From an uncultured Desulfatiglans sp. (GTDB lineage Bacteria; Desulfobacterota; DSM-4660; Desulfatiglandales; Desulfatiglandaceae), in the NCBI GenBank assembly GCA_900498135.1, contig LR026961.1, positions 2,414,666-2,478,665 of the forward strand: a stretch of DNA of 64,000 bases, given 5' to 3'. Position numbers and translations under genes: made by a program. Below, in pieces: positions 1,175 to 63,670 of this stretch; position 1 is the first letter of the stretch, and the number at the start of each line of letters is the position of its first letter. The notes under the pieces were generated by a model. The model did no database searches. It saw only the letters and a list, made by a program, of their open reading frames with translations, and had not been told where the DNA came from.

Positions 1175-1883
1175 CCTGCATCCTCCGGCTCTTGCCGGCA
1201 GACGTGCAAACGCCGATCTCCGCTAAAGGTCATCATGCGCGTCCTCCATGCTTTTTGCCTGTCTGAAATGACATGCTTGAACCGTCTCTTGAGAAAAGGT
1301 TCACCCGCCGGTCTGTATTCCGGAGGCCCGAGCATCGTTTTGCGTCTACCAGGCGGCGCTGCGGCGGACGGTCGCGCATGTCGGCGCAGCCGGCGATGCA
1401 GCCCGTTCTTCGAGGATCGGAACAAAGCAGTCCGCAAGAATTTTCTGCATGCTTGATGCCAAACCCGGTTCCTCTGAGGATGGGCGTTATGTCAATCCGA
1501 TTTCGGCTGATCGCAATCGTGCCTGCTCGCAGACGGTTTTCCCGGCAAAGACGGGTTCAGGGCACATGCCCGCCTCCAAGCAGGGCTTTCAATCATCCTC
1601 TACCGGGACCCTGCGTGCCTGATTCCGGGGGGCGTTTCCCGTTACTGAAATGTAACTCGTATGCCCATGTGGTATCTTTCCGGTTGCATGGGTGGCCAGC
1701 GGTTCCGGAGACAGGAAGCCCTTCCCCGTCTGTGGACCATGTGCAGCATGGTCATCGGCATAAAGGCATTTCTTTGAAAACAAGGGGGTGACAGGACCCT
1801 GGAATTCTGGCATATTGCAGACACATTGAGCCGGTCCGTGGGTTCTGGACGGTCGTCGGCACCCGGCCCGGTTCTTACGATCG
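1175..1883. other. Intergenic region without recognisable gene
   Basis: About 700 bp between the divergent starts of neighbouring genes. Reading frames here are short, arginine/proline rich and lack ribosome binding sites, as expected from GC-rich non-coding DNA. No RNA gene was recognised. The right edge runs into a degenerate copy of the dispersed palindromic repeat. Confidence 0.5.
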
Positions 1884-2052
1884 TTCCTTCCGGAAATGGT
1901 CTTTTTGCCCAATCTCTGCGTCAATCTGCGCTTGCTTGTGCGGCGTGCTATTCGTATGCCTCCGCGCGACCGCTCGATTTCCTTGATCTTGGCAAAAATC
2001 CTCATTTCCGGCCTGGAAGCTATGTCGAGTTCAAAGCTTCGTTTCCGGGTGG
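1884..2052 (+). repeat. Dispersed palindromic repeat, copy A (degenerate short form)
   Basis: Matches the element consensus along its length: left end TTCCTTCCGGAAATGG, then CTTTTTGCCCAATCTCTGCG, the central part with TTGCTTGTGCGGCG, the right arm GGCAAAAATCCTCATTTCCGG, and a diverged tail ending near GTTTCCGGGTGGG. The palindromic centre (normally CTGCAG flanked by GGCGAC and GTCGCC) is mutated to GCTATTCGTATGCC. This is an old copy compared with the ones near 5030 and 45872. Confidence 0.8.
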
Positions 2053-5000: not shown

Positions 5001-5029
5001 GCCCTTGCTCCTTGCTGAATGTAGATAGT

Positions 5030-5203
5030 TTCCATCCGGAAATGGCCTTTTTGGCCAATCTCGGCGTCAATCTGCACGTTTGATTGTGCGGCGACCTGCA
5101 GGTCTCCTCCGCGCAAACACTTGATTTTCTTGATATTGGCCAAAAATCCTCATTTCCGGATTGGAAACTGAGTTCTACCGGAAAATCATTTCCGGATGGA
5201 GAC
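5030..5203 (+). repeat. Dispersed palindromic repeat, copy B (intact short form) with 8-bp flanking direct repeats
   Basis: Near-consensus 174-bp element. The left end is TTCCATCCGGAAATGG and the right end CATTTCCGGATGGAGAC, an inverted match. The body is a long imperfect palindrome centred on CTGCAG: GGCCAATCTCGGCG on the left answers to ATATTGGCCAAAAATC on the right. TAGATAGT occurs immediately before (5022-5029) and immediately after (5204-5211), as expected for a target-site duplication. This is the best copy for defining the ends. Confidence 0.92.
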
Positions 5204-5389
5204 TAGATAGTCGGCTCGGACGGCACCCGGCCGCCGATGCGCTGTGTGGAATGAAACCTTCTCCGATGGCTCGCATTTTGGGGTGACTGGCGGAAAAAGT
5301 CAATGGAATCGACTTTCCATGGGATGGGTCTATCCGACGCGCAGAGATCGTTGACTGCCCATCGTGAACCGATTTTCGAGTACGATCCA
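5204..5389. other. Short spacer between repeat copies
   Basis: About 185 bp without a credible gene or RNA, between copy B and the reverse-oriented copy. It contains GGAATCGACTTTCC-like symmetry near 5308 but nothing that can be called. Confidence 0.3.
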
Positions 5390-5580
5390 GTTTTCAGTCC
5401 GGAATGAGGATTTTTTCTTCGAACGCTGCGTGTGCACAGTCCCCTGCCTCACAGCGTGTCCCGCTTTGTTTTAATATATAGAAAATCGAGCGGTTGCGTG
5501 AATCCGACCTGCAGGCTGTCAAACAAGCGAAGGTGCAGGTTGACGTTGAAAGCGGCAAAACAGCCGTTTCGGAAGGTGGG
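5390..5580 (-). repeat. Dispersed palindromic repeat, reverse-oriented diverged long copy
   Basis: On the reverse strand this reads as an old copy. CCGTTTCGGAAGGTGG at the right is the reverse of a left end. GACCTGCAGGC with AAACAAGCGAAGGTGCAG matches the centre, and CAGTCCGGAATGAGGATT at the left is the reverse of the right arm. Between arm and centre it keeps a diverged form of the extra module (reverse strand GCGGGACACGCTG ... GTGCACACGCAGCG), so it belongs to the long form. It is the only clearly inverted copy in the window. Confidence 0.72.
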
Positions 5581-5651
5581 CTGTTTCCCCTTGCAAATCG
5601 CATGGCTTTGTGTTATGCAGCCCGGCTGAAGGGGTTCAAGCCCCTACCTGG

Positions 5652-5826
5652 ATTCCATCTGGAAATGGTCTTTTTGGCCAATCTCGGCGTCAATCTTTCG
5701 TTTGCTTGTGCGGCGACCTGCAGGTCGCCTCTGCGCAAGCGGTTGATTTCCTTGATATTGGCCAAAAATCCCCATTTCAGGTTTGGAAATTGAGTTGTAC
5801 CGGAAAATCATTACCGGATGGAGACC
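5652..5826 (+). repeat. Dispersed palindromic repeat, copy C (intact short form) with flanking ACCTGG repeats
   Basis: 175-bp short form: TTCCATCTGGAAATGG at the left, CTGCAGGTCGCC at the centre, GATATTGGCCAAAAATCC in the right arm, and a tail ending TTACCGGATGGAGAC. ACCTGG precedes it at 5646-5651 and follows it at 5827-5832; extended to 8 bases (ACCTGGAT and ACCTGGTT) seven match. It lies 80 bp upstream of the likely ATP synthase promoter. Confidence 0.9.
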
Positions 5827-12664: not shown

Positions 12665-13265
12665 GGTCACGGATTGTTTTTGTTTACTCAAGTTGCAGGA
12701 GCGATGATTTGAGGCAGAATTCTACCCGCTACGGGGATTGTGAGGCCTGTGTTGTGGGTATTGTTTTGCTCAGCGAGGATGGTGGGCGTTATCCATCTAG
12801 GTTAGGTGAAACCGGCCCGCTCCCTGTGCTTGATGAGTAAAACGGCTTGTCCGTTATGCTCCAATCCATGTCGGTGATGTCGTATTGCAGTTGCACCAGC
12901 CGCCGGGCTTACTTAAAGTTCTGATCAAGACGATCGAGTGGTTCTTGCGGCAGCCCCCTCCCCTAATAAAAGCATTCCCGTCGTACTGTAAAACCCTCCT
13001 GCCCGCACGGTTTACGGCTCTTATAGAAAAATGGACTCCCTCTTGTCCGCAGATGGTTCCAGCGGTCTGAGAAACATGAGCCGGTGGGCGTATGCGTGAC
13101 TTTACCGGCGAATTGTGAACATCCCGTCAGGCAGCTATTTTTCCGGCGGCGGAGTTGGGTAACTGCGCAGCTTGCTTCTCTCGGGATTATGGCGCGTTCT
13201 GCCCGTGCAATGGTTGAATTGCTGGTTTAGTTTCTATCGAGAGATGATTTCCTGTAGAACCAAGG
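12665..13265. other. Intergenic region between zapA and the rny-linked repeat
   Basis: About 600 bp with no credible protein gene. Small hairpins are visible, such as AACGG-CTTGT-CCGTT near 12841 and GGATGG...CCATC near 12778-12796. In many proteobacteria the 6S RNA gene lies directly after zapA, so this is the place to look for it. However, the long rod-like fold with a central bubble could not be established by eye, and no RNA is called. Confidence 0.35.
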
Positions 13266-13456
13266 TTCCCATCCGGAAAGGTCGATGTTCAGTTCATCAT
13301 TAGGAAAGCAAGCTTTTGCGGGGAGGCTGCGTCTAGAAAGAACTGAGACCCGCAAGCCCGAAGAGCTTGGTCAGAGTGGACGGGACCCACGAACGTAACC
13401 CTCATTTCCGTGTTTGAAACGTGTCTGTGCTTGAATAGCATCACTTCGGATGGACA
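13266..13456 (+). repeat. Dispersed palindromic repeat, copy K (old long form) overlapping the first possible start of rny
   Basis: The left end TTCCCATCCGGAAAGGTC is clear, and the right arm ACCCTCATTTCCGTGTTTGAAAC is clear. The tail TCACTTCGGATGGACACC at 13441-13458 matches the consensus tail TCATTTCCGGATGGAGAC. The middle is heavily diverged, with a GACCCGCAAGCCCGAAGAGCTTGG segment that looks like a relic of the long-form hairpin module. The ATG within GGATGGAC is the first in-frame ATG of the rny reading frame. Confidence 0.65.
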
Positions 13457-13476
13457 CCAAGGAGAATGAACTCGGC

Positions 13477-22100: not shown

Positions 22101-22245
22101 CTACCTCATTCTGGAACTGGATGAGCACAGCGCCGTAGCTGGTGTGATGACGCGTCTGGAGGCCTATCAAAACGTTATTGAAAACGTGCTGCGAAAGCAG
22201 CAGCAAGGGTTCAACGGCGCCCTGGACCACAGGGCAGCCAATTAG
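19138..22245 (+). CDS. 2-hydroxyacyl-CoA dehydratase activase-type protein (two ASKHA ATPase domains + DUF2229-like region), 1035 aa
   Basis: Two tandem BcrA/BadF/HgdC-type ATPase domains. The first has GIDAGSVAVKGIVID, GGQDTALFE, the cysteine-containing CASGTGSFIDQQ and CRCTVFTKSDM. The second (from ~350) has GLDIGSTTTKYVLMD, IGGQDSKYIYI, CAAGTGSFLHEL and ERCTVFMESDLVSYLQ. The paired cysteines fit the bridging [4Fe-4S] cluster of this family. A C-terminal part (~660-1000) resembles the DUF2229/COG3580 segment (LTPPTTPAISSRGIESMAAE). Such proteins use ATP to drive low-potential electron transfer to a radical dehydratase or reductase; the partner here is not known. ATG 19138 overlaps the upstream gene. 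The next gene, 286 bp downstream and separated by repeat D, encodes what is often the C-terminal part of one long fused protein. Confidence 0.88.
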   Translation: MEDETRASGSGRQGLYAGIDAGSVAVKGIVIDQAGEIVHACPYARHFGRVEEKIQELIAQLYADIGPESFRSISFTGNHARKLAEDLDAFYEFENITQVLGALHVEPKARSIISMGGQDTALFEIGHEAGASKAGEGEWELAYFNSNGPCASGTGSFIDQQAQRLATALYETEKVVSQEAIDQVLADFIELGSKSLKPAHVACRCTVFTKSDMIHLQNKGERLEDIIFGLHIGNARNYMSTIVSNRRLRAPILFIGGLTLNRLQVQAFKAYFPDLVIPPYATATGALGVALQALRSGHRGVVEEKRLEEIRSSRMVNLPSAQRLILRKTLFPEGNLVASKPLKKKTRVYLGLDIGSTTTKYVLMDENRVIIHKRYVPTQGKPIEVVKELLGELQSEWGGALEITGTATTGSGRNVVGDFLNVDLMIDEITAHARGAVEMDAAVDTIFEIGGQDSKYIYIANTHPLDFDMNKVCAAGTGSFLHELSNKYGINIVGEFQDIALSSSAPVPLAERCTVFMESDLVSYLQRGAPVKDLMAGLCYAIVSNYLNRVVGKRRIGERIMFLGGPSLNKAVVAAFENVLGRGLLVPRHREVLGAYGAALSVQELMAYEGKGESSFRGIASAVADNMEYEEKICHADPNCHNQCKLKIYHFDGRRSVWGGECGRYDVTRGRGEKKPNYFALRQRVMDEFLDGVALTLKEGETRLEADGRPTVGLQRALYVHQTAVLWAHFFDRLGFRLVLTPPTTPAISSRGIESMAAETCYPVKVSHGHARMLIGRTRHLFMPFMITMEKPQEAEKGFYCPMVQGNAYMLQSALGIDLKKALSPTVYLDRDPKTIAMALTEALGPKLGVHFAETHQALIHALGKQAAFSRRLIQEGDRVRAAMDEHEPLVVVTGRPYNLYDERLNLRLGQNLGKIGLTALPMDFLDVSAVDLSDFPSMYWGLGAQILRTAKIIKEHDHLFGLHLTNFECGPDSFLEHFYRYIMGDKAYLILELDEHSAVAGVMTRLEAYQNVIENVLRKQQQGFNGALDHRAAN

Positions 22246-22246
22246 T

Positions 22247-22472
22247 TTCCGTCCGGAAATGGTCTTTTTGGCCAATCTCGGCGTCGATCTGCACGTTTGC
22301 TTGTGCGGCGACCACCAGGTTGCCTCTGCGCAAACGCTGGATTTCCTTGATATGGGCCAAACCGGGACCCGCCGCGAAGCGGTGGGACTGAGCACCCGAA
22401 GGGTGTGAAGAAAAATCCTCATTTCCGGATTGGAAACCTTGCCGCGCCGGATGCTCTTTTCCGGATGGACAC
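22247..22472 (+). repeat. Dispersed palindromic repeat, copy D (intact long form) between two CoA-activase genes
   Basis: 226-bp long form. The left end TTCCGTCCGGAAATGG follows the activase stop codon by one base, and the tail ends TTTTCCGGATGGACAC. Within the right arm, after GATATGGGCCAA, a ~50-nt module is inserted: CCCGCCGC-GAA-GCGGTGGG forms an 8-bp hairpin with a GAA loop, and GCACCC-GAA-GGGTGT a second. Flanks CAATTAGT and CGATCAGT match at 6 of 8 positions. A further solo left end (TTCCATCCGGAAGAGG) follows at 22481. Confidence 0.9.
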
Positions 22473-28390: not shown

Positions 28391-28417
28391 GTGATGACCT
28401 CCTGGTGTTTAGATGGT

Positions 28418-28552
28418 TTCCATCTGGAAATGGTCTTTTTGGCCAATCTGGGCGTCAATCTGCACGTTTGCTTGTGCGGCGACCTGCAGGTCGCCTCCGC
28501 GCAAACGCTTGATCTCCTGGATATCGGCCAAAAATCCTCATCGACGGTTGAA
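28418..28552 (+). repeat. Dispersed palindromic repeat, copy E (short form, right end truncated)
   Basis: TTCCATCTGGAAATGG, the palindromic centre GCGGCGACCTGCAGGTCGCC and the right arm ATATCGGCCAAAAATCCTCA are nearly consensus. Homology stops shortly after CTCATCGACGG, so the tail with the outer inverted repeat is missing. The left flank is TAGATGGT, close to the TAGATAGT flanking copy B. Confidence 0.88.
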
Positions 28553-29023
28553 CACTGCTCAGTACGTGCCCTTCGGGAGAAGAGCGCTTGTCTCTGTAAG
28601 GAATGCTTGTTTTTTTTAAGCAGGTTTCTTCAAAAGAATGCTCAGAGACACAGAAAAACGATAGCAAAAAGCATGCCGAAAAAATATCTTTGGTCTTTGC
28701 TGCAGCTGCGGTAGCGGGGTTGATCGACGTTCAGGACCTCCTTAAGGTGATTTTTCACCCAGGTAAGAATAGTTTTTTGTCCGTAACGGCCTTTGGCAAA
28801 TAGGTTTATCCCGCTTTCCTTCGGATGCTGAAACAGCGGGCTCCGTAAGGCGGATTGCCAGCAAAGCCAGGGGGATGGAGCACGCATCGAAAAGTGGCAT
28901 TTGGACTCGATAAAAACTCAAGAATTTCGCTGTCTGGTCGATTCAATCAAATATGGGCTCTTTCTGCGGATTTCCATCGCCTTCTGTGATGAGTGGTATT
29001 CACTCTTTCCCCCGTTTGATAAC
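28553..29023. other. Intergenic region upstream of a motility/chemotaxis gene pair
   Basis: About 470 bp. The frame of the next gene is open back to 28901 (TTG), but the added 41 residues look unlike coding sequence. No promoter of the sigma-54 type was found here, and no RNA gene was recognised. Confidence 0.35.
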
Positions 29024-45802: not shown

Positions 45803-45871
45803 AAATTCAACTAAAGATTCAGAGCGGATCGGTCGATTAAAAGATCGTGGGCTGCGACTTTATCTAGATCT

Positions 45872-46045
45872 TTCCATCCGGAAATGGTCTTTTTGGCCAA
45901 TCTCGGCGTCAATCTGCACGTTTGCTTGTGCGGCGACCTGGAGGTCGCCTCCGCGTCAACGCTTGATTTCCTTGATATTGGCCAAAAATCCTCATTTCCG
46001 GATTGGAAACCGGGTTCTCCCAGGAAATCGTTTCCGGGTGGGATC
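45872..46045 (+). repeat. Dispersed palindromic repeat, copy F (intact short form)
   Basis: 174 bp: TTCCATCCGGAAATGG, GCGGCGACCTGGAGGTCGCC at the centre (one change in CTGCAG), GATATTGGCCAAAAATCC, and the tail CCGGGTTCTCCCAGGAAATC then GTTTCCGGGTGGGATC. The left flank is CTAGATCT and TAGATC recurs just after the tail, a weak duplication candidate. Copy G follows 10 bp later in the same direction. Confidence 0.92.
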
Positions 46046-46055
46046 TATTTAGATC

Positions 46056-46274
46056 ATTGGAAAATGGTTTTTTTGGCCGATCTCGGCGTCAATCTGCAGA
46101 TTTGTTTTTGGGGTGATCTGCGGGTTTACTCAACGCAAACATTTGATTGCATTGATATTGATTTGGGACTCGCTGCGGAACGGTGGGACGGAGCACCCGC
46201 AGGATGTGAAGGGTAGATCTTCATCCTTGGATTGAAAACCGGGTTCTACCGAGGAATCATTTCCGGATGGCTCT
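46056..46274 (+). repeat. Dispersed palindromic repeat, copy G (diverged long form)
   Basis: The left end is diverged (ATTGGAAAATGG); GGCCGATCTCGGCGTCAATC is recognisable. The long-form module is present: CTCGCTG pairs with CGGTGGG around CGGAA, and GCACCCGCAGGATGTG forms the second hairpin. The tail GAGGAATCATTTCCGGATGG is clear. It ends 64 bp before the second cheX-like gene. Confidence 0.82.
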
Positions 46275-51781: not shown

Positions 51782-53125
51782 ATGGACCATTTTCAAATTC
51801 TTTTCGTCGATGATGAACCCGATATAAGAGAAATTGCTCATAAATATATGACCTTCCATGGGTATAAGATCCGAGTCGCCGAAAGCGGTGATGTGGCTCT
51901 CGAACGCCTGCGTATGGAGCGGTTTCCGGTCGTATTTACGGATTTATTCATGCCCGGAATGGATGGATTGACTCTCCTGAAGATCATCAAAGATGAATGG
52001 CCGGCCACGGATGTGGTTGTTTTGACGGGATATGGCAGTATCAAGTCAGCTATTGAAGCGACGAAGCTCGGATGTTATGACTACCTGCAAAAACCGATGA
52101 AACTAGAGCGCTTGAAGCTTTTGGTGGACCAGATCGCAGAACGCTGGAAAAAGACCGAGCCCGATAATTTGCTCGAGGTGGATGGAGATTACGGCAGCTT
52201 TGACGGGGTGGTGGGCAAGAGTCCGCGGATGCAGGAGATATTCGCCCTTATTTCCAAAATCAGCTCGAACGGTCCTACGGTATTGATCCATGGCGAGAGC
52301 GGTACGGGCAAAGAGTTGATTGCCAGAGTAATCTGGCGAAAAAGCTCGCGGCAGGATAAACCTTTCGTGCCGGTCAATTGCGGGGCGATTCCTGAAGGGT
52401 TGGCCGAAAGTGAACTCTTCGGTCATGTGAACGGTGCTTTCACTGGAACGGTACGGGATACCAAAGGGTTGTTCGAGGCGGCTGACGGAGGAACACTCTT
52501 TCTGGATGAGATCACTGAAATTTCTTCTTGCATGCAAGTCAAGCTGTTGCGTGCTCTGCAGGAAAAGTGTATCCGGCGTGTAGGGGAGTCTAAAGAGTTG
52601 TCGGTTGATGTCAGAGTCATCGCCGCCACCAATCGTGATCCGTTGGTCAGTCTCCAAGAGGGCCGCTTGAGGGAGGATCTTTACTACCGGCTGAATGTCG
52701 TGCCGATTATGTTGCCGCCTTTGCGAGAGCGCAAAGAGGATGTTGAAGGGCTTGCTCGACATTTTTTGAAGCGACTGGAGCGGATGAATAAAAAAAACGG
52801 GCCGATTAGCATCACCACCCAAGCGCTTGATGCCCTTCGTCGATACCATTGGCCCGGCAATGTTCGAGAGCTTGAGAATGTCATAGAGAGGGCCTTTTTA
52901 TTATGTTCGGATCATTTGATCCGATTGTGTGATCTTCCTTCCAATATCGTTGCGATGCCACAAAACAGTTCCAGCCAAAATTTAAAACTCAGAACGCATG
53001 AAGCGAACCTGATCGAGAAGGCTCTGTCCGAGGCCGGCAGCAATAAAAGCACTGCCGCAGATCTGCTCGGGATCAACCTGAGCACGCTTTACCGGAAGAT
53101 GAAAAAATACGATATCCCTCTCTGA
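51782..53125 (+). CDS. NtrC-family response regulator with GAFTGT loop, 447 aa
   Basis: The receiver domain (FVDDEPDIREIAHKYM, VVFTDLFMPGMDGLTLL, DYLQKPMKLERLK) has full phosphorylation residues. The AAA+ domain (about 140-375) has Walker [16 protein letters not shown], Walker B GGTLFLDEITEISSC, AATNRDP and LPPLRERKEDVEGL. The Fis-type HTH (AADLLGINLSTLYRKMKKYD) ends the protein. The sigma-54-contacting loop reads VNGAFTGTVRDT instead of GAFTGA, a change in the most conserved motif of the family. It may still work or may have altered sigma-54 contact. Probable partners are the cytosolic kinases at 44528 or 47758. Confidence 0.95.
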   Translation: MDHFQILFVDDEPDIREIAHKYMTFHGYKIRVAESGDVALERLRMERFPVVFTDLFMPGMDGLTLLKIIKDEWPATDVVVLTGYGSIKSAIEATKLGCYDYLQKPMKLERLKLLVDQIAERWKKTEPDNLLEVDGDYGSFDGVVGKSPRMQEIFALISKISSNGPTVLIHGESGTGKELIARVIWRKSSRQDKPFVPVNCGAIPEGLAESELFGHVNGAFTGTVRDTKGLFEAADGGTLFLDEITEISSCMQVKLLRALQEKCIRRVGESKELSVDVRVIAATNRDPLVSLQEGRLREDLYYRLNVVPIMLPPLRERKEDVEGLARHFLKRLERMNKKNGPISITTQALDALRRYHWPGNVRELENVIERAFLLCSDHLIRLCDLPSNIVAMPQNSSSQNLKLRTHEANLIEKALSEAGSNKSTAADLLGINLSTLYRKMKKYDIPL

Positions 53126-53167
53126 TGGTCTTTTCGTTTCCCGCATGCAGTCCCACCGTTAGGTAGT

Positions 53168-53380
53168 TTCCATCCAGAAATGGTCTTTTTGGCCAATCTC
53201 GGCGTCAATCTGCACGTTTGCTTGTGCGGCGACCTGTTGGTCCTATTCGCACAAGTGATTGATTTTCTTAACCTTAGCAGGCTGGGCCTATCCCGAAGGG
53301 GTGGCCTGAGCACGCGAAGCGAGTGAAGAAAAATCCGCATTTCTGGACTGGAAACTGGGCCGTGCCGGTGAATCGTCCTA
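53168..53380 (+). repeat. Dispersed palindromic repeat, copy H (long form, tail truncated)
   Basis: The left end TTCCATCCAGAAATGG follows the regulator stop by 42 bp, with flank TAGGTAGT. The centre is altered on its right side (GCGGCGACCTGTTGGTCCTA). The module has a different sequence but the same shape as in copy D: GGCCTATCCC-GAA-GGGGTGGCC pairs over nine base pairs with one bulge, and CACGC-GAA-GCGAGTG forms the second hairpin. Homology fades after GTGCCGGTGAATCG. Confidence 0.87.
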
Positions 53381-53829
53381 TCCCATTTCATCGCTTGTGA
53401 GTTGAATCTTGAACGCTTTTGGCAAAATGCAAAAGCTCTTGCATTATGCAAAGTGGACGGGGCCGATTCATTGAAGGAAAGCTGGAGCTTATTGATCTGA
53501 TTTTGCAATCCCGTGAATTTTCTCGGGTGCCCGGCTTGTGTCGAGCTTTTTCAGAGGATCGGGGGAGATTGGGAAAAATCCGGACGTTTGAGCCTTCGGA
53601 CTCATCGCAAAACGGCTTGAACCCTTAACGGCGAAGGTCATTGGATATGGAGTGCGAGATGCTTTTTCCCAGTTTATGCCGTTTCAGTTCACGAGGCGGT
53701 TGCATTTGCATTTTACACAAGAGGACCGGACCTATTTCAGGTTCAAGGATAAGACCTCCATTGCCTTTTAATGCCGATCTTATTGAAATGTTTTGTTTCC
53801 TATAGTTGTACACGGGTCCTGGGGTATGA
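53381..53829. other. Intergenic region upstream of a sigma-54 activator
   Basis: About 450 bp between repeat H and the sigma-54 promoter. A 69-codon frame at 53419 begins with TTG and lacks a ribosome site. Nothing else is recognised. Confidence 0.35.
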
Positions 53830-53844
53830 TGGTATGGATCTTGC
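53830..53844 (+). promoter_or_regulatory. Sigma-54 promoter upstream of the FleQ-like activator
   Basis: TGGTAT-GGATC-TTGC followed by T: correct -24 and -12 elements with standard spacing. The expected start near 53856 leaves ~145 nt before the GTG at 54003. A sigma-54 activator under a sigma-54 promoter implies autoregulation or a cascade. Confidence 0.65.
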
Positions 53845-54002
53845 TCTTTCCTTGCGTGGTTACGAGGCGTAGAGCGATTCCGATGGAGCGTATTCCCGGG
53901 GTCCAGCTCAGTTCAAGGGTTTAAGAAGAAGATTGGTCCTCCGTCGGCCAGGATTAAAAAATCAGAAAAAAGCGGCTGCGGGATTTAAGGGGATCACCTT
54001 GG

Positions 54003-55076
54003 GTGGAGGAACCGTTGAACCACGTTTTCAATGCATTGCTGGAGGATGATCAAGAGCAGGGATCAGTGGGTGTTTCGCCCAAGTCGTCCCGTGCTGCTTC
54101 GCTAGCTTTCGGATCCTTGGTCGGCCAATGTGGCCAGATGCAGGCGGTTTACAGCCTTGTGCGCAAAGTTGCCCGAACCGATTCCACTGTGATCATATAC
54201 GGAGAGAGCGGAACGGGTAAGGAACTTGTAGCACGGGCGATTCATGAGACATCCGATAGGAGAGACAAGGCCTTTGTGGCGATTAATTGCGGTGCCATTC
54301 CGGAGAATCTCCTGGAAAGCGAACTCTTCGGTCATGTGAGAGGGGCTTTCACGGGCGCGACCACGAACAAGCCCGGAAAATTTGAGATGGCTGACGGCGG
54401 AACGATTTTTCTGGACGAAATTGGAGATATGAGTCCCGAACTGCAGGTCAAACTCCTGCGGGTTCTTGAAACTCGTTCCTTCGAGCCTGTCGGTGGAAAC
54501 CGCTCTTACAAGGTCGATGTACGTGTCTTGGCGGCTACCCATCGGGATTTAAGGGACGCTATTGCCAAGGGCCGTTTCAGAGAAGATCTGTTTTACCGCC
54601 TGCACGTCATTCCCGTCACCCTGCCGCCTCTGCGCGAGCGGAGGAATGATATCCCTTTGCTGGTGGAGCATTTCGTAGCGCACTTCAACGCTGCCAAAGG
54701 AATGAGTATCGCCGGTATCCGGTCGGACGCCCTCGAACGTCTGGTGGATTACCACTGGCCCGGGAATGTCCGGGAACTCAAGAATATGATGGAACGTCTG
54801 ACAATTCTCCGGGGGCAAGGGGAAATCGATCTATCCGATTTGCCTGACAAATTTCTTGCCATGTCATCTGCCGAGGCAAAGTTTGTTCCGCAGATTGAGT
54901 TTTCAGAGGAAGGGATTTGTTTGAATACAGCAGTGACCGAGTTTGAAAAGGCGTTGATACTCCAGTCGCTTCAGAAAACGCAGTGGGTGAAGAACAAGGC
55001 GGCGAAGCTCCTGCACTTGAATCGCACAACACTCGTCGAAAAGATCAAACGCCACCAGTTGCAGCCGTGCTGCTGA
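54003..55076 (+). CDS. Sigma-54 activator without receiver domain, FleQ/FlrA-like, 357 aa
   Basis: A ~40-residue N-terminus precedes the AAA+ domain directly (Walker [87 protein letters not shown]). The C-terminal Fis-type HTH is KNKAAKLLHLNRTTLVEKIK. Lacking a receiver, it is not controlled by phosphorylation and would be constitutive or regulated by partners. Its place just upstream of the FlbD-like gene and the flgB operon suggests the top regulator of flagellar gene expression. The start is GTG 54003 with an AAGGGGAT leader. Confidence 0.92.
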   Translation: MEEPLNHVFNALLEDDQEQGSVGVSPKSSRAASLAFGSLVGQCGQMQAVYSLVRKVARTDSTVIIYGESGTGKELVARAIHETSDRRDKAFVAINCGAIPENLLESELFGHVRGAFTGATTNKPGKFEMADGGTIFLDEIGDMSPELQVKLLRVLETRSFEPVGGNRSYKVDVRVLAATHRDLRDAIAKGRFREDLFYRLHVIPVTLPPLRERRNDIPLLVEHFVAHFNAAKGMSIAGIRSDALERLVDYHWPGNVRELKNMMERLTILRGQGEIDLSDLPDKFLAMSSAEAKFVPQIEFSEEGICLNTAVTEFEKALILQSLQKTQWVKNKAAKLLHLNRTTLVEKIKRHQLQPCC

Positions 55077-55306
55077 CCATCATCGTGTCAAATATATGAC
55101 GACCGGTTCGGACTGTTGACGCCCGATGTCACAAGGCGCTGCTCCGTCCTTGCAGGTCGAATGCACTGCCCTACTGCACCGGCTTTTTAATCATATCTCC
55201 CACACCCGATGTTTGTTCCTCCTTCTAAAGGCTCTTTAAGATTTCCCCCTATTTGACCCATAGTCATTCCAGGTCCACTTTTCTCATACGATGTTTTTCC
55301 AATCGG

Positions 55307-55321
55307 TGGCATGTTTCTTGC
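55307..55321 (+). promoter_or_regulatory. Sigma-54 promoter of the FlbD-like gene
   Basis: TGGCAT-GTTTC-TTGC followed by C. The -24 GG and -12 GC dinucleotides are correctly spaced. The expected start is near 55333, about 120 nt before the ATG at 55453. Confidence 0.75.
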
Positions 55322-55452
55322 CGTTTCTAAGACAGATCTCATTTGGGGCCGGTTCCCACGGATTCCGATTGGGGTTGTGCAGTGACGCAAGAAAGACGCC
55401 TGTATCCATCCAGGGGAATGCCGGCGAGTGAAGGGAAAGGAGTAACGGCTGC

Positions 55453-56850
55453 ATGCGGAGGGCGACGATCCTTCTTGTTGGTGGCGATTCTGAGCTTTGG
55501 AGCCAGGTTGACAGGGTGCTGGGCCGAACCGGTTGCGAGGTGCAGCGGGTGGCGGCAGGCAAGGACGCTGCCGCCAGAGTGGCTGAGACGCCCTGCTTGG
55601 GTGTCCTCGTTGATACTGCGACGGCCGGAATGCCCTGTAGTGAATTGATCAAGACCGTCAATGGAGTGGCGGCTGAGATTCCGGTTGTTTTTACGGCCCG
55701 GCAGAGAACCGTGTCCGAGGCGATGGAAGTGATGCGGGCGGGGGCCGAGGACTATCTTGGGAGGCCTATTGATTCCCGGCATTTGGTCGCTTTGGTCGAG
55801 CGGTGGCGCAGCCGGGGGCATCACGATATGCGACCCGAGGTGAACCGGGATCGTCACAGCGGCTTTGACGATTGCCGGGAGATTGTCACACGTGACCCCG
55901 CTTTTTTAAATACCTTGAAAGTCGCCGAAAACATCGCCCTCAGTCCAGCGACGGTCCTTATTTATGGGGAGAGCGGCACCGGCAAGGAACTGCTGGCTCG
56001 GTTCATCCATGAAAGAAGTGACCGCCGCGAAGGTCCCTTCGTGGCGGTCAACTGCGCCGCGCTGCCAGATGGTCTGGCGGAGAGCGAACTTTTCGGTCAT
56101 GAGAAAGGCGCGTTTACGGGGGCGTTGAATCGCAAGTTGGGGCGGTTCGAGCTGGCCGATGGTGGCACGCTTGTCCTGGACGAGATCTCCGAGACACCTC
56201 TGCCCATTCAGGCCAAATTGCTCCGTGCCCTGCAGGAACAGATCATTGACCGGGTCGGAGGCAGCACTCCGATATCGGTGAATGTGAGGGTGATCGCCAT
56301 TACCAACCAGGACCTCGCAGTGGCAGTGGAGGAAGGTCGCTTCCGGGAAGATCTTTTCTACCGTGTCAATGTTATCCCGCTGATGATTCCGCCTTTGAGG
56401 GAGCGCCCCTTGGATATCCCCCTCCTGGCCCGCTATTTCATTGAGCATTACGCCGACAGGGTGGGTCGGCCGGCGCCGCGCCTTTCCTCTGAGGTCAAGG
56501 AACATCTTGTGAAGCGGGAGTGGAAAGGGAACGTGCGCGAACTCGAAAACACCATTCAGCGCGGGATCTTGTTGTGTCAGGAAGAGGTCGTTCTGCCGGA
56601 ACACTTATTGTTGGAAGGTCCCTTCAAAAGTTTTTCTACCGGCAAGTACATGGTCGAGGCGGGCTTGTCGATGAGAGAGATGGAACGGCGACTGATTTTG
56701 GCCACGCTTCAAAATGTCAACGGTAACCGTACCCATGCGGCCCGGATGCTGGGAATCAGTATCCGAACACTGCGGAATAAACTTAGGGAATACCGGGATC
56801 GCGGGCTGGTCCTAGCCGAGAATTCCGGAGCGGCGGTGGGGATGGGTTGA
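55453..56850 (+). CDS. FlbD/FlrC-like sigma-54 activator with degenerate receiver, 465 aa
   Basis: The N-terminal receiver-like domain (about 1-120) begins [16 protein letters not shown], so the usual acidic pair is reduced to one Asp. [17 protein letters not shown] keeps an Asp at the phosphorylation site, but [10 protein letters not shown] has Arg where the conserved Lys should be. Phosphorylation control is therefore doubtful. The AAA+ domain is complete ([58 protein letters not shown]-type [14 protein letters not shown]), and the HTH is [20 protein letters not shown]. Receiver-degenerate regulators just upstream of flgB control the hook-basal-body operon in related bacteria (FlbD/FlgR type). 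It is likely the direct activator of the promoter at 57039. Confidence 0.92.
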
Positions 56851-58325: not shown

Positions 58326-59960
58326 ATGGCATCTACACTGCATTCCAAGTTTTCATCGGCGATTGCTTCCTTCAAGTCCCTCAGCCACACCAGACGGGTG
58401 GTTCTGCTGGGTCTGACGGCGGCGGCGGCCATGTCCATTATATGGCTCATGGTTTGGGTCAACACCCCCGATTTTCAAGTCCTTTATGGGAATCTCGCTC
58501 AGGAGGACGCTGCCGCCGTCGTCAGTCGCCTCAAAGCGCAAAAGATTCCTTTCGAGATTGCGGCGCAAGGACGCACTGTTTTAGTGCCTGCCGAGCGGCT
58601 CTATGAGCTCAGACTCGATCTGGCTTCTCAAGGATTGCCGCAGGGCTCGGGGGTTGGTTTTGAAATCTTTGATAACACGAAGCTCGGGATGACCGAATTT
58701 GTTCAGAACGTGAATTATCAAAGGGCCCTCCAGGGGGAATTGGCCAGAACCATTGCGGGTTTCAGTGAAGTGGAAAGCTGCAGGGTGCATATCGTCATGC
58801 CCTCCCAATCCCTTTTCCTGGATCAGGAGGAGTCGGCCACCGCCTCCATAGTGTTGAAAATCCGTGAAGGATGCCAGCTCAGCCAGAATCAGATTCAAGG
58901 AATCATCCACCTTGTTTCTTCCAGTGTGTCGCGGCTGGCCCCTAAAGACGTGACGGTGGTCGACAACTTTGGCAAGATCCTCGGCAGGGACAGCGAATCT
59001 TCGGACATGCGGCGTGTCAGTTCCGACCAGCTCGAATACCAGGTGAGGGTGGAGAAGAATCTCGAGAATCGGATCAAGACGATGCTGTCCACGGTCCTGG
59101 GACCCGAAAAGGCCATCGTACGCGTTTCCTGTCTCATGGATTTCAGGCATGAGGAAAAAACCGCGGAACAGTACCAACCCGATGCCGTGGCGGTGCGCAG
59201 TGAGCAATATCATAATTCCGGGTCTGCAGGGGCCGATGCAAGCGTTGTCGATGTCCCCCTTGGAGTGGATTCGATCGATCAAGAAGAGAGAAAGAAGAAG
59301 TCGGAGCCAACCGCTGGTGCCGGGTCCGAGAGGCAGAGCCGCGTAGTGAATTACGAGGTCAGCAAGGTCATCAGCCACGTGGTCGAACCAGTGGGGCGTA
59401 TCAAACGCGTCTCTGTAGCGGTGGTGGTGGACGGGACTTACCGCCCATCGAAGAATGCACCCGATGATGCGCAGACGGAATACGTACCTCGCAGTCAGGC
59501 GGAACTCGAGCGAATGGAGGCCCTGATCAAACGGGTCGTGAATTTCGATGCGGATCGCGGGGACCAGGTGGAGGTAGCCAACATGCCTTTCGAGTTTCGT
59601 GGTCAGCCGGAAACTGAGGAGACGAGCGCTTTTTCACGCTGGGTGCGATGGCTTGAACCTTTAGGTATGTATTCGAAATACGTTATTGCGGTTCTGATAC
59701 TGTTGTTTGCTTACCGGTTGGTTGTCCGTCCGGTTATACGCTGGCTCACAGCCAGCTACGGCGGAGAGATGGATCTCCAGGTTCTAAAGCAGCTGCCCAT
59801 GACCGTCAAGGAGCTGGAAGACGGGTACGGACGCAGCTCAACGGTTGGTTCCGCGGCTTCGAACCGGGCGCTGGAGGCAATTACGAGAGATCGGGATCGA
59901 TCGCTACAGTTGATGCGTGAATGGCTGAAGGAAGGGCAGGCCGGGACTCCGAATAGCTAG
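58326..59960 (+). CDS. fliF: Flagellar MS-ring protein FliF
   Basis: 544-aa inner-membrane ring protein. The first membrane helix is at ~26-45 (VVLLGLTAAAAMSIIWLMVW), followed by NTPDFQVLYGNLAQEDAAAV (ring-building YscJ-like region). GSGVGFEIFDNTKLGMTEFV and NYQRALQGELARTIAGFSEV are the standard signatures. A second membrane helix lies near 455-475 (YVIAVLILLFAYRLVVRPVI), and the cytosolic tail binds FliG. Its stop codon abuts repeat copy I, which separates it from fliG by ~440 bp. Confidence 0.96.
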   Translation: MASTLHSKFSSAIASFKSLSHTRRVVLLGLTAAAAMSIIWLMVWVNTPDFQVLYGNLAQEDAAAVVSRLKAQKIPFEIAAQGRTVLVPAERLYELRLDLASQGLPQGSGVGFEIFDNTKLGMTEFVQNVNYQRALQGELARTIAGFSEVESCRVHIVMPSQSLFLDQEESATASIVLKIREGCQLSQNQIQGIIHLVSSSVSRLAPKDVTVVDNFGKILGRDSESSDMRRVSSDQLEYQVRVEKNLENRIKTMLSTVLGPEKAIVRVSCLMDFRHEEKTAEQYQPDAVAVRSEQYHNSGSAGADASVVDVPLGVDSIDQEERKKKSEPTAGAGSERQSRVVNYEVSKVISHVVEPVGRIKRVSVAVVVDGTYRPSKNAPDDAQTEYVPRSQAELERMEALIKRVVNFDADRGDQVEVANMPFEFRGQPETEETSAFSRWVRWLEPLGMYSKYVIAVLILLFAYRLVVRPVIRWLTASYGGEMDLQVLKQLPMTVKELEDGYGRSSTVGSAASNRALEAITRDRDRSLQLMREWLKEGQAGTPNS

Positions 59961-60186
59961 ATCAACCGGAAATGGTCTTCTTGGCCAATCTCGGCATCAG
60001 TCTGCACGGTTGCTTGTGGGATGACCTGTAGACCACCACTGCGCGAATTCTTGATTTAATGGGTATTTTGCAAACTGGGACCTGCCGCGGAGCGGTCGGG
60101 CTGATCGCCCGAAAGGTGTGAGGAAAAATTATCATTTCCGGATTGGAAACTGGATTCCACCGGGAAATGATTTCCGGATAGACGCT
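59961..60186 (+). repeat. Dispersed palindromic repeat, copy I (long form) between fliF and fliG
   Basis: 226 bp. The left end is AACCGGAAATGG (TTCCAT part mutated), then CTTGGCCAATCTCGGCATCA. The centre is altered (ATGACCTGTAGACCACCACT). The module CCTGCCGC-GGA-GCGGTCGGG and CGCC-CGAAA-GGTG keeps both hairpins. The right arm ATTATCATTTCCGGATTGGA and tail GGGAAATGATTTCCGGATAG are clear. It begins at the base after the fliF stop codon. Confidence 0.88.
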
Positions 60187-63489: not shown

Positions 63490-63670
63490 GTATCTAATTG
63501 GTAAATGATTTATTTTGTTAATTGCGATATCAATTTGCAAGTTTGCTTTTGCAGAGCTTACTAGATTGTGTCCATACGGAAATGATTTCGCGGTAGGACT
63601 AAGTTCCCGAGTAAGAACATAAGTTGTTTTATATTTGCAAAACTTTCTCATTTCTGGATAGTAATCAATT
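63490..63670 (+). repeat. Dispersed palindromic repeat, copy J (highly degenerate) between fliI and fliJ
   Basis: Recognisable landmarks in order: GGTAAATGATTTATTTTGTTAA at the left, GCGATATCAATTTGCAAGTTTGCTTTTGC matching the GCGTCAATCTGCACG-type stretch, and CTTTCTCATTTCTGGATAG at the right arm. It also has GTCCATACGGAAATGATTTCG, which looks like a second end. The changes are mostly towards A and T. It fills most of the gap between fliI and fliJ. Confidence 0.55.

Follow-up and report, generated by a model that had tools for sequence, protein, structure and literature searches.

A phylum-wide, fold-preserving MITE family in Desulfobacterota, probably mobilised in trans by an ISNCY-family transposase

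A 64,000-nucleotide stretch of the genome of an uncultured Desulfatiglans sp. (hereafter the window; G000:C1:2414666-2478665 of the closed 4.80-Mb genome G000) contains twelve large palindromic repeats that a first-pass annotation could not assign to a named family, which raises the question of what these repeats are and how they come to be there. All twelve were recovered at the positions given in that annotation, using a direct-repeat search and a profile HMM that returned 0 matches on reversed sequence. The copy placed at 5030 is genuine, but its true unit spans 5028-5203, the start having been read two bases late. The copies had also been described as intergenic, and their overlap with any predicted open reading frame is indeed 43 bp or less. 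The twelve repeats are copies of one MITE family and are arranged in the window as follows.

1881-2052, plus strand: decayed MITE copy (direct-repeat search, HMM)
5028-5203, plus strand: complete 176-bp reference copy of the MITE (HMM, 210 bits)
5358-5572, minus strand: degraded MITE copy in reverse orientation, in two pieces (HMM)
5651-5825, plus strand: near full-length MITE copy with duplication TACCTG/CACCTG, 5 of 6 bases matching (end-pair analysis, HMM)
13231-13457, no strand given: decayed MITE copy (end-pair analysis, HMM)
22245-22472, plus strand: MITE copy with a nested double-hairpin cassette of about 50 nt at about 22361-22411 (HMM, cassette pattern)
28416-28590, plus strand: MITE copy (direct-repeat search, HMM)
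45870-46045, plus strand: near full-length MITE copy (direct-repeat search, HMM)
46053-46272, plus strand: MITE copy adjoining the 45870-46045 copy, with a nested cassette at 46160-46216 (HMM, cassette pattern)
53166-53390, plus strand: MITE copy with a nested cassette at 53277-53328 (HMM, cassette pattern)
59960-60185, plus strand: MITE copy with a nested cassette at 60073-60124 (HMM, cassette pattern)
63500-63665, no strand given: decayed MITE copy (HMM)

The window also contains a 74-bp tandem duplication (2609-2756), the copies of which are 97% identical, and several sigma-54-activator-like genes (7-491 and 52406-56372) with common conserved DNA stretches (GESELFGH-type motifs).

The family extends well beyond the window. 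We identified 109 clusters in 0.864 Mb of G000, taken as stretches, which scales to ~600 in 4.8 Mb and agrees with the earlier expectation of hundreds in the genome. A near full-length copy is present in 31 of the 109 clusters, equivalent to ~170 genome-wide, and the end sequence occurs 362 times across the genome with at most one mismatch, compared to 0 for a backwards control. With genes called by a simple codon-usage script, the elements overlapped coding sequence by 9.6%, while 73% of the sample as a whole was coding. Searches of Rfam and of plasmid and phage collections with the repeat gave no match.

The unit is 176 bp long and is bounded by the inverted ends GTTTCCATCCGGAAATG...CATTTCCGGATGGRNAC. 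Reading from the left, the end GTTTCCATCCGGAAATG is followed by a long imperfect hairpin with GGCGACCTGCAGGTCGCC at its centre; an inverted copy of the end (CATTTCCGGATTGGAAAC) then lies inside the element, ahead of a tail of 35 nt and the right end CATTTCCGGATGGRNAC. The reference copy and its flanks contain the following parts.

5022-5027, no strand given: left target duplication TAGATA (sequence of the reference copy)
5028-5044, plus strand: left terminal inverted repeat GTTTCCATCCGGAAATG, its first 15 bp equal to the ends of the G000 ISNCY element
5090-5107, plus strand: central palindrome GGCGACCTGCAGGTC(T)CC
5114-5126, minus strand: candidate IHF site fitting the consensus WATCAANNNNTTR
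5151-5168, plus strand: internal inverted end copy CATTTCCGGATTGGAAAC, closing the long hairpin ahead of the 35-nt tail
5187-5203, plus strand: right terminal inverted repeat CATTTCCGGATGGAGAC
5204-5209, no strand given: right target duplication TAGATA (sequence of the reference copy)

In other genera the central palindrome is GGCGTAC..GTACGCC, the paired changes preserving its symmetry. Almost every aligned element has the IHF-consensus-like sequence, with variation at its four spacer bases, and we take it as a lead to a putative IHF site; Correia and some BIME elements carry IHF sites. The element is non-coding, its 176 bp holding at most 58 codons, and its fold greatly exceeds what chance would give (z = -7.2, 0 of 200 shuffles). 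The double-hairpin cassette of ~50 nt, AAACCGGGACCC..GGGACTGAGCAC..GTGTGAAG, occupies one fixed insertion place within the MITE, and its stems differ among copies with matching changes on both sides. The cassette pattern gave 14 matches in the 0.864 Mb, all 14 inside or adjoining a MITE. Other genera (L045, L096, L109, L166 and L168) carry different hairpin-rich insertions within the same MITE, for example GACTCGGGGCATCC..CGGAATTG.

For the analysis of target duplications, end pairs were gathered blind to the flanking sequence (n = 49). A perfect 6-bp duplication was present in 23 of the 49 and a 7-bp duplication in 6 more, while duplications of 5 or 8 bp were observed in 0. The target consensus TANNTA (T43 A49 N N T47 A45) was derived from 52 copies whose 6-bp duplication is exact. 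We also joined the flanks of young G000 copies and searched for the joined sequence in the sister species G001. Five G000 insertions (L030, L005, L006, L013 and L020) are absent from G001, where the corresponding sites are 81-93% identical and contain a single target copy. These precise empty sites show that the repeats are mobile DNA and were still moving after the split between the two species. Other G000 insertions are common to G001 and are therefore older.

No transposase had been noticed in the window, and a search covering the DDE_Tnp_1 family agrees. The long end-pair search in the G000 sample also returned no autonomous copy, and it was a search by transposase family that instead revealed the partner. 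The first-pass annotation had raised the prospect of an autonomous transposase with the same ends, and this is found elsewhere in G000, with identical 15-bp ends. The genome carries three copies of an ISNCY-family insertion sequence (IS) of 1,693-1,698 bp, encoding a 455-aa DDE transposase. The three genes score 432-445 bits against NF033593, the NCBI model for the ISNCY family, and the partner-element transposases overall score 432-450 bits, above the curated cut-off of 325 bits. One of the G000 copies (L256, 1,693 bp) has the ends GTTTCCATCCGGAAA with TAAATA on both sides, and these ends match those of the MITE exactly over 15 bp. Identity is 91-92% for the remaining two copies, which share the ends apart from a single change at one end of each; both are without a matching duplication, one having none and the other having flanks that suggest recombination.

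Independent partners in G016 and G249 have ends that resemble the MITE ends of their own lineage. The G016 element (L237, 1,698 bp), found among the transposase loci of element-rich genomes, has the ends GTGTCCATCC with TAATTA on both sides, and its transposase and one relative exceed the NF033593 cut-off. The ISNCY copy in G249 (L270) has TAATTA as its duplication and GTTCCCATCCGGAAAC as its ends, which are close to the Desulfuromonadales MITE ends. A related ISNCY element in G267 has different ends and a duplication of TAAATA or TAATTA, and the target preference therefore goes with the transposase family. Related ISNCY elements at L248 (1297-2983), L269 and L277 have different ends (GTTTTTGTAG, GTGCCTGAACG) and the same 6-bp TAAATA/TAATTA duplication. 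Within ISfinder, the partner IS would probably fall in the ISDol1 group.

The MITE and the IS have the same terminal 15 bp and the same TAWWTA-type 6-bp duplication, and little in common beyond the ends; in contrast to the MITE, the IS is 1.69 kb long, carries a gene and is without the internal hairpin core. This limited similarity, and the two G000 IS copies without a matching duplication, weigh against mobilisation of the MITE by the IS. Because ends and duplications are shared, the ISNCY transposase most likely moves the MITE in trans. Judging from these sequence comparisons, we consider it highly probable that the repeat is a non-autonomous MITE mobilised, via the shared ends, by the ISNCY-family transposase of the same genome. 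The DDE transposase from the 1.69-kb IS elsewhere in the genome would recognise the shared ends GTTTCCATCCGGAAA, and the 176-bp element would be excised or copied and then inserted at an AT-rich TANNTA site outside coding sequence. The 6-7 bp duplication would arise when the staggered cut is repaired, after which the inserted copies would decay where they sit. The conserved hairpin may be needed for mobility and not for host function at each site. A MITE was one of the options offered in the first-pass annotation, and the terminal inverted repeats, the 6-7 bp duplications, the empty sites and the autonomous partner with identical ends show that option to be right. What was an unnamed repeat can now be described as a mobile family, and a candidate transposase can be named for it. 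In the open-licence literature we found no paper describing this MITE or any MITE of an ISNCY element.

Related copies are widespread among sulfate- and iron-reducing bacteria. A DNA-level match was present in 25 of 61 genomes of relatives. Scanning named genomes with a 20-base pattern located loci in Desulfobacterales, Desulfuromonadales and other Desulfobacterota, and those with full ends also have 6-bp duplications. A few pattern matches outside the phylum (in Mycobacterium, Lachnospiraceae and others) are likely to be chance or binning errors. A covariance model built from 33 elements had matches in 43 of the 247 phylum genomes and, within a single order that is probably Geobacterales, in 84 of 117. 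The element measures 175-178 bp in many genera and 186 in others. A MITE is a known kind of element; the phylum-wide, fold-preserving and modular form seen here is unusual. This spread, the covariation and the end-less core forms considered below all go beyond what was foreseen from the window.

Could the hairpin work at the RNA level at each site, the repeats being host regulatory RNAs or terminators, as proposed for RNAs of G. metallireducens? The stable fold would fit this explanation, as would its covariation. Across genera 95.7% of cells are paired and 15 of 45 pairs have changed on both sides; the both-side-changed cells number 94, where shuffling predicts 29 and slid controls reach no more than 24. 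Such phylum-wide conservation of the internal fold is stricter than a passive MITE requires, and counts against our preferred explanation. However, stem mismatches among the G000 copies comprise 127 G-U and 116 A-C, showing no preference and no strand bias in decay, and RNA-level selection on individual copies is thus not seen. As the fold is kept across genera while the G000 copies decay without a G-U preference, we read the pattern as selection that would act on copies as they move rather than on every resident one. The target duplications and empty sites also argue against regulatory RNAs. A role as a terminator in G000 is disfavoured by depletion between convergent genes, where 5 elements were observed and 22 expected, a rough figure because the genes were called by the codon-usage script.

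Further points in favour of regulatory RNAs come from Geobacter. In Geobacter metallireducens, 24 'predicted short RNA elements' with the central palindrome GRCGTAGCGCTGCTACGCC have been listed (Aklujkar et al. 2009, PMC2700814 Figure S1), and one copy sits between dapAB and dapL (PMC2700814). The account of these elements in that source is of predicted RNAs, not mobile DNA. We find that the ~118-nt core of the MITE also occurs without the inverted ends, and that core-only members of the structural family in two related Geobacteraceae genomes, G306 and G336, have the GRCGTAGCGCTGCTACGCC palindrome at their centre, the G336 matches being weak (18-27 bits). These core-only forms have no terminal inverted repeats, and the predicted RNAs may be related to them through this palindrome. 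The core-only loci L332-L360 (G306, G336) and L328 (G160) lie just after stop codons and between operon genes. Core-only forms in Geobacterales mostly start a few bases past a stop codon, a position that would suit a function in RNA. Overall we regard host regulatory RNAs or terminators as an unlikely explanation for the family, and retain the mobilised MITE.

Several core-only forms are closed by a copy-specific, self-complementary outer stem, and for one form the orthologous site is empty. Another idea for the Geobacterales core-only forms, that the core had entered a hairpin already in place, was rejected, one empty site being without such a hairpin. It is possible, and we suggest it only tentatively, that the ~118-nt core is a functional unit by itself, recognised as folded DNA or RNA. 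It would travel in the MITE in Desulfobacterota, and be kept without ends in Geobacterales, after stop codons inside operons, where it might have been domesticated as an mRNA-processing or regulatory device. The analysis also points to a relation between the intergenic 'predicted RNAs' of Geobacter and a transposable element. Full-length, cassette-bearing and end-less core forms across many genera make up a rare natural series, which lets one ask how a MITE keeps its folded shape for so long and whether its hairpins become host parts. The questions of most worth are the reason for the conservation of the core and the role of the end-less copies.

The MITE may also be mobilised mainly by another transposase with a similar end preference, the ends being shared with the ISNCY element by descent only. 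The ISNCY transposase (NF033593) was detected in 9 of the 247 phylum genomes, 3 of which have the MITE, and the co-occurrence is not significant (3/9 vs 40/238, p = 0.19). Of the 43 MITE-bearing phylum genomes, 40 are without a detected NF033593 gene; many are drafts, with closed genomes among them. As no partner gene was detected even in closed MITE genomes, further transposases may be active as well, or loss of the partner may be frequent. In most genomes, then, the MITE either outlasts or outpaces its partner or is served by additional helpers, the drafts blurring the picture. G000 itself has ~15 further DDE_Tnp_1 matches. None of the other transposase loci examined, which cover a part of these matches, combines these ends with a 6-bp duplication, whereas in three lineages both features are found in the ISNCY element. 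We therefore think it quite improbable that another enzyme is the main one, and mobilisation by the ISNCY transposase remains our preferred reading.

Spread of a REP/BIME- or ERIC-like element through a RAYT/IS200-type (REP-associated) transposase would likewise give palindromic, intergenic repeats of high copy number, and REP-like hairpin cassettes are nested in some copies, but this origin is very remote given the 6-7 bp duplications and clean insertion, which are not expected for IS200/IS605-type enzymes. The comparison with ERIC and BIME in the first-pass annotation holds as a likeness and fails as an identity. ERIC, Correia/NEMIS and BIME are, like the present family, short palindromic intergenic repeats with hundreds of copies; they differ in sequence, length and target duplication and belong to other phyla. 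ERIC inserts at TA, and the target duplication of ERIC, Correia and BIME elements is TA or none. Membership of ERIC or Correia is ruled out by a duplication of 6-7 bp rather than TA, and membership of REP/BIME with RAYT, which have short REP units and no duplication, by the 6-7 bp duplications together with the empty sites.

Another comparison is Chunjie, a described MITE of Geobacter uraniireducens of 178-235 bp, one copy of which lies in a phosphate uptake operon that is duplicated (PMC10969869). Genome G330 (5,136,364 bp, one contig) has two identical phoU loci and is very probably the G. uraniireducens genome of Chunjie. Its two phoU operon copies differ by 244 bp, made up of a 235-bp element with the ends CAGCGTTGTCCGGTTTGG and a 9-bp duplication AAAAAAAGC, and this Chunjie-1 insertion, in one of the two operons, lies at about 7762-8006 of L330. 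Both families are MITEs of similar size from the same phylum, very probably with a host in common. Chunjie was nevertheless rejected as the same element on its different ends, its 9-bp duplication and the lack of sequence similarity. G330 also carries the present MITE family.
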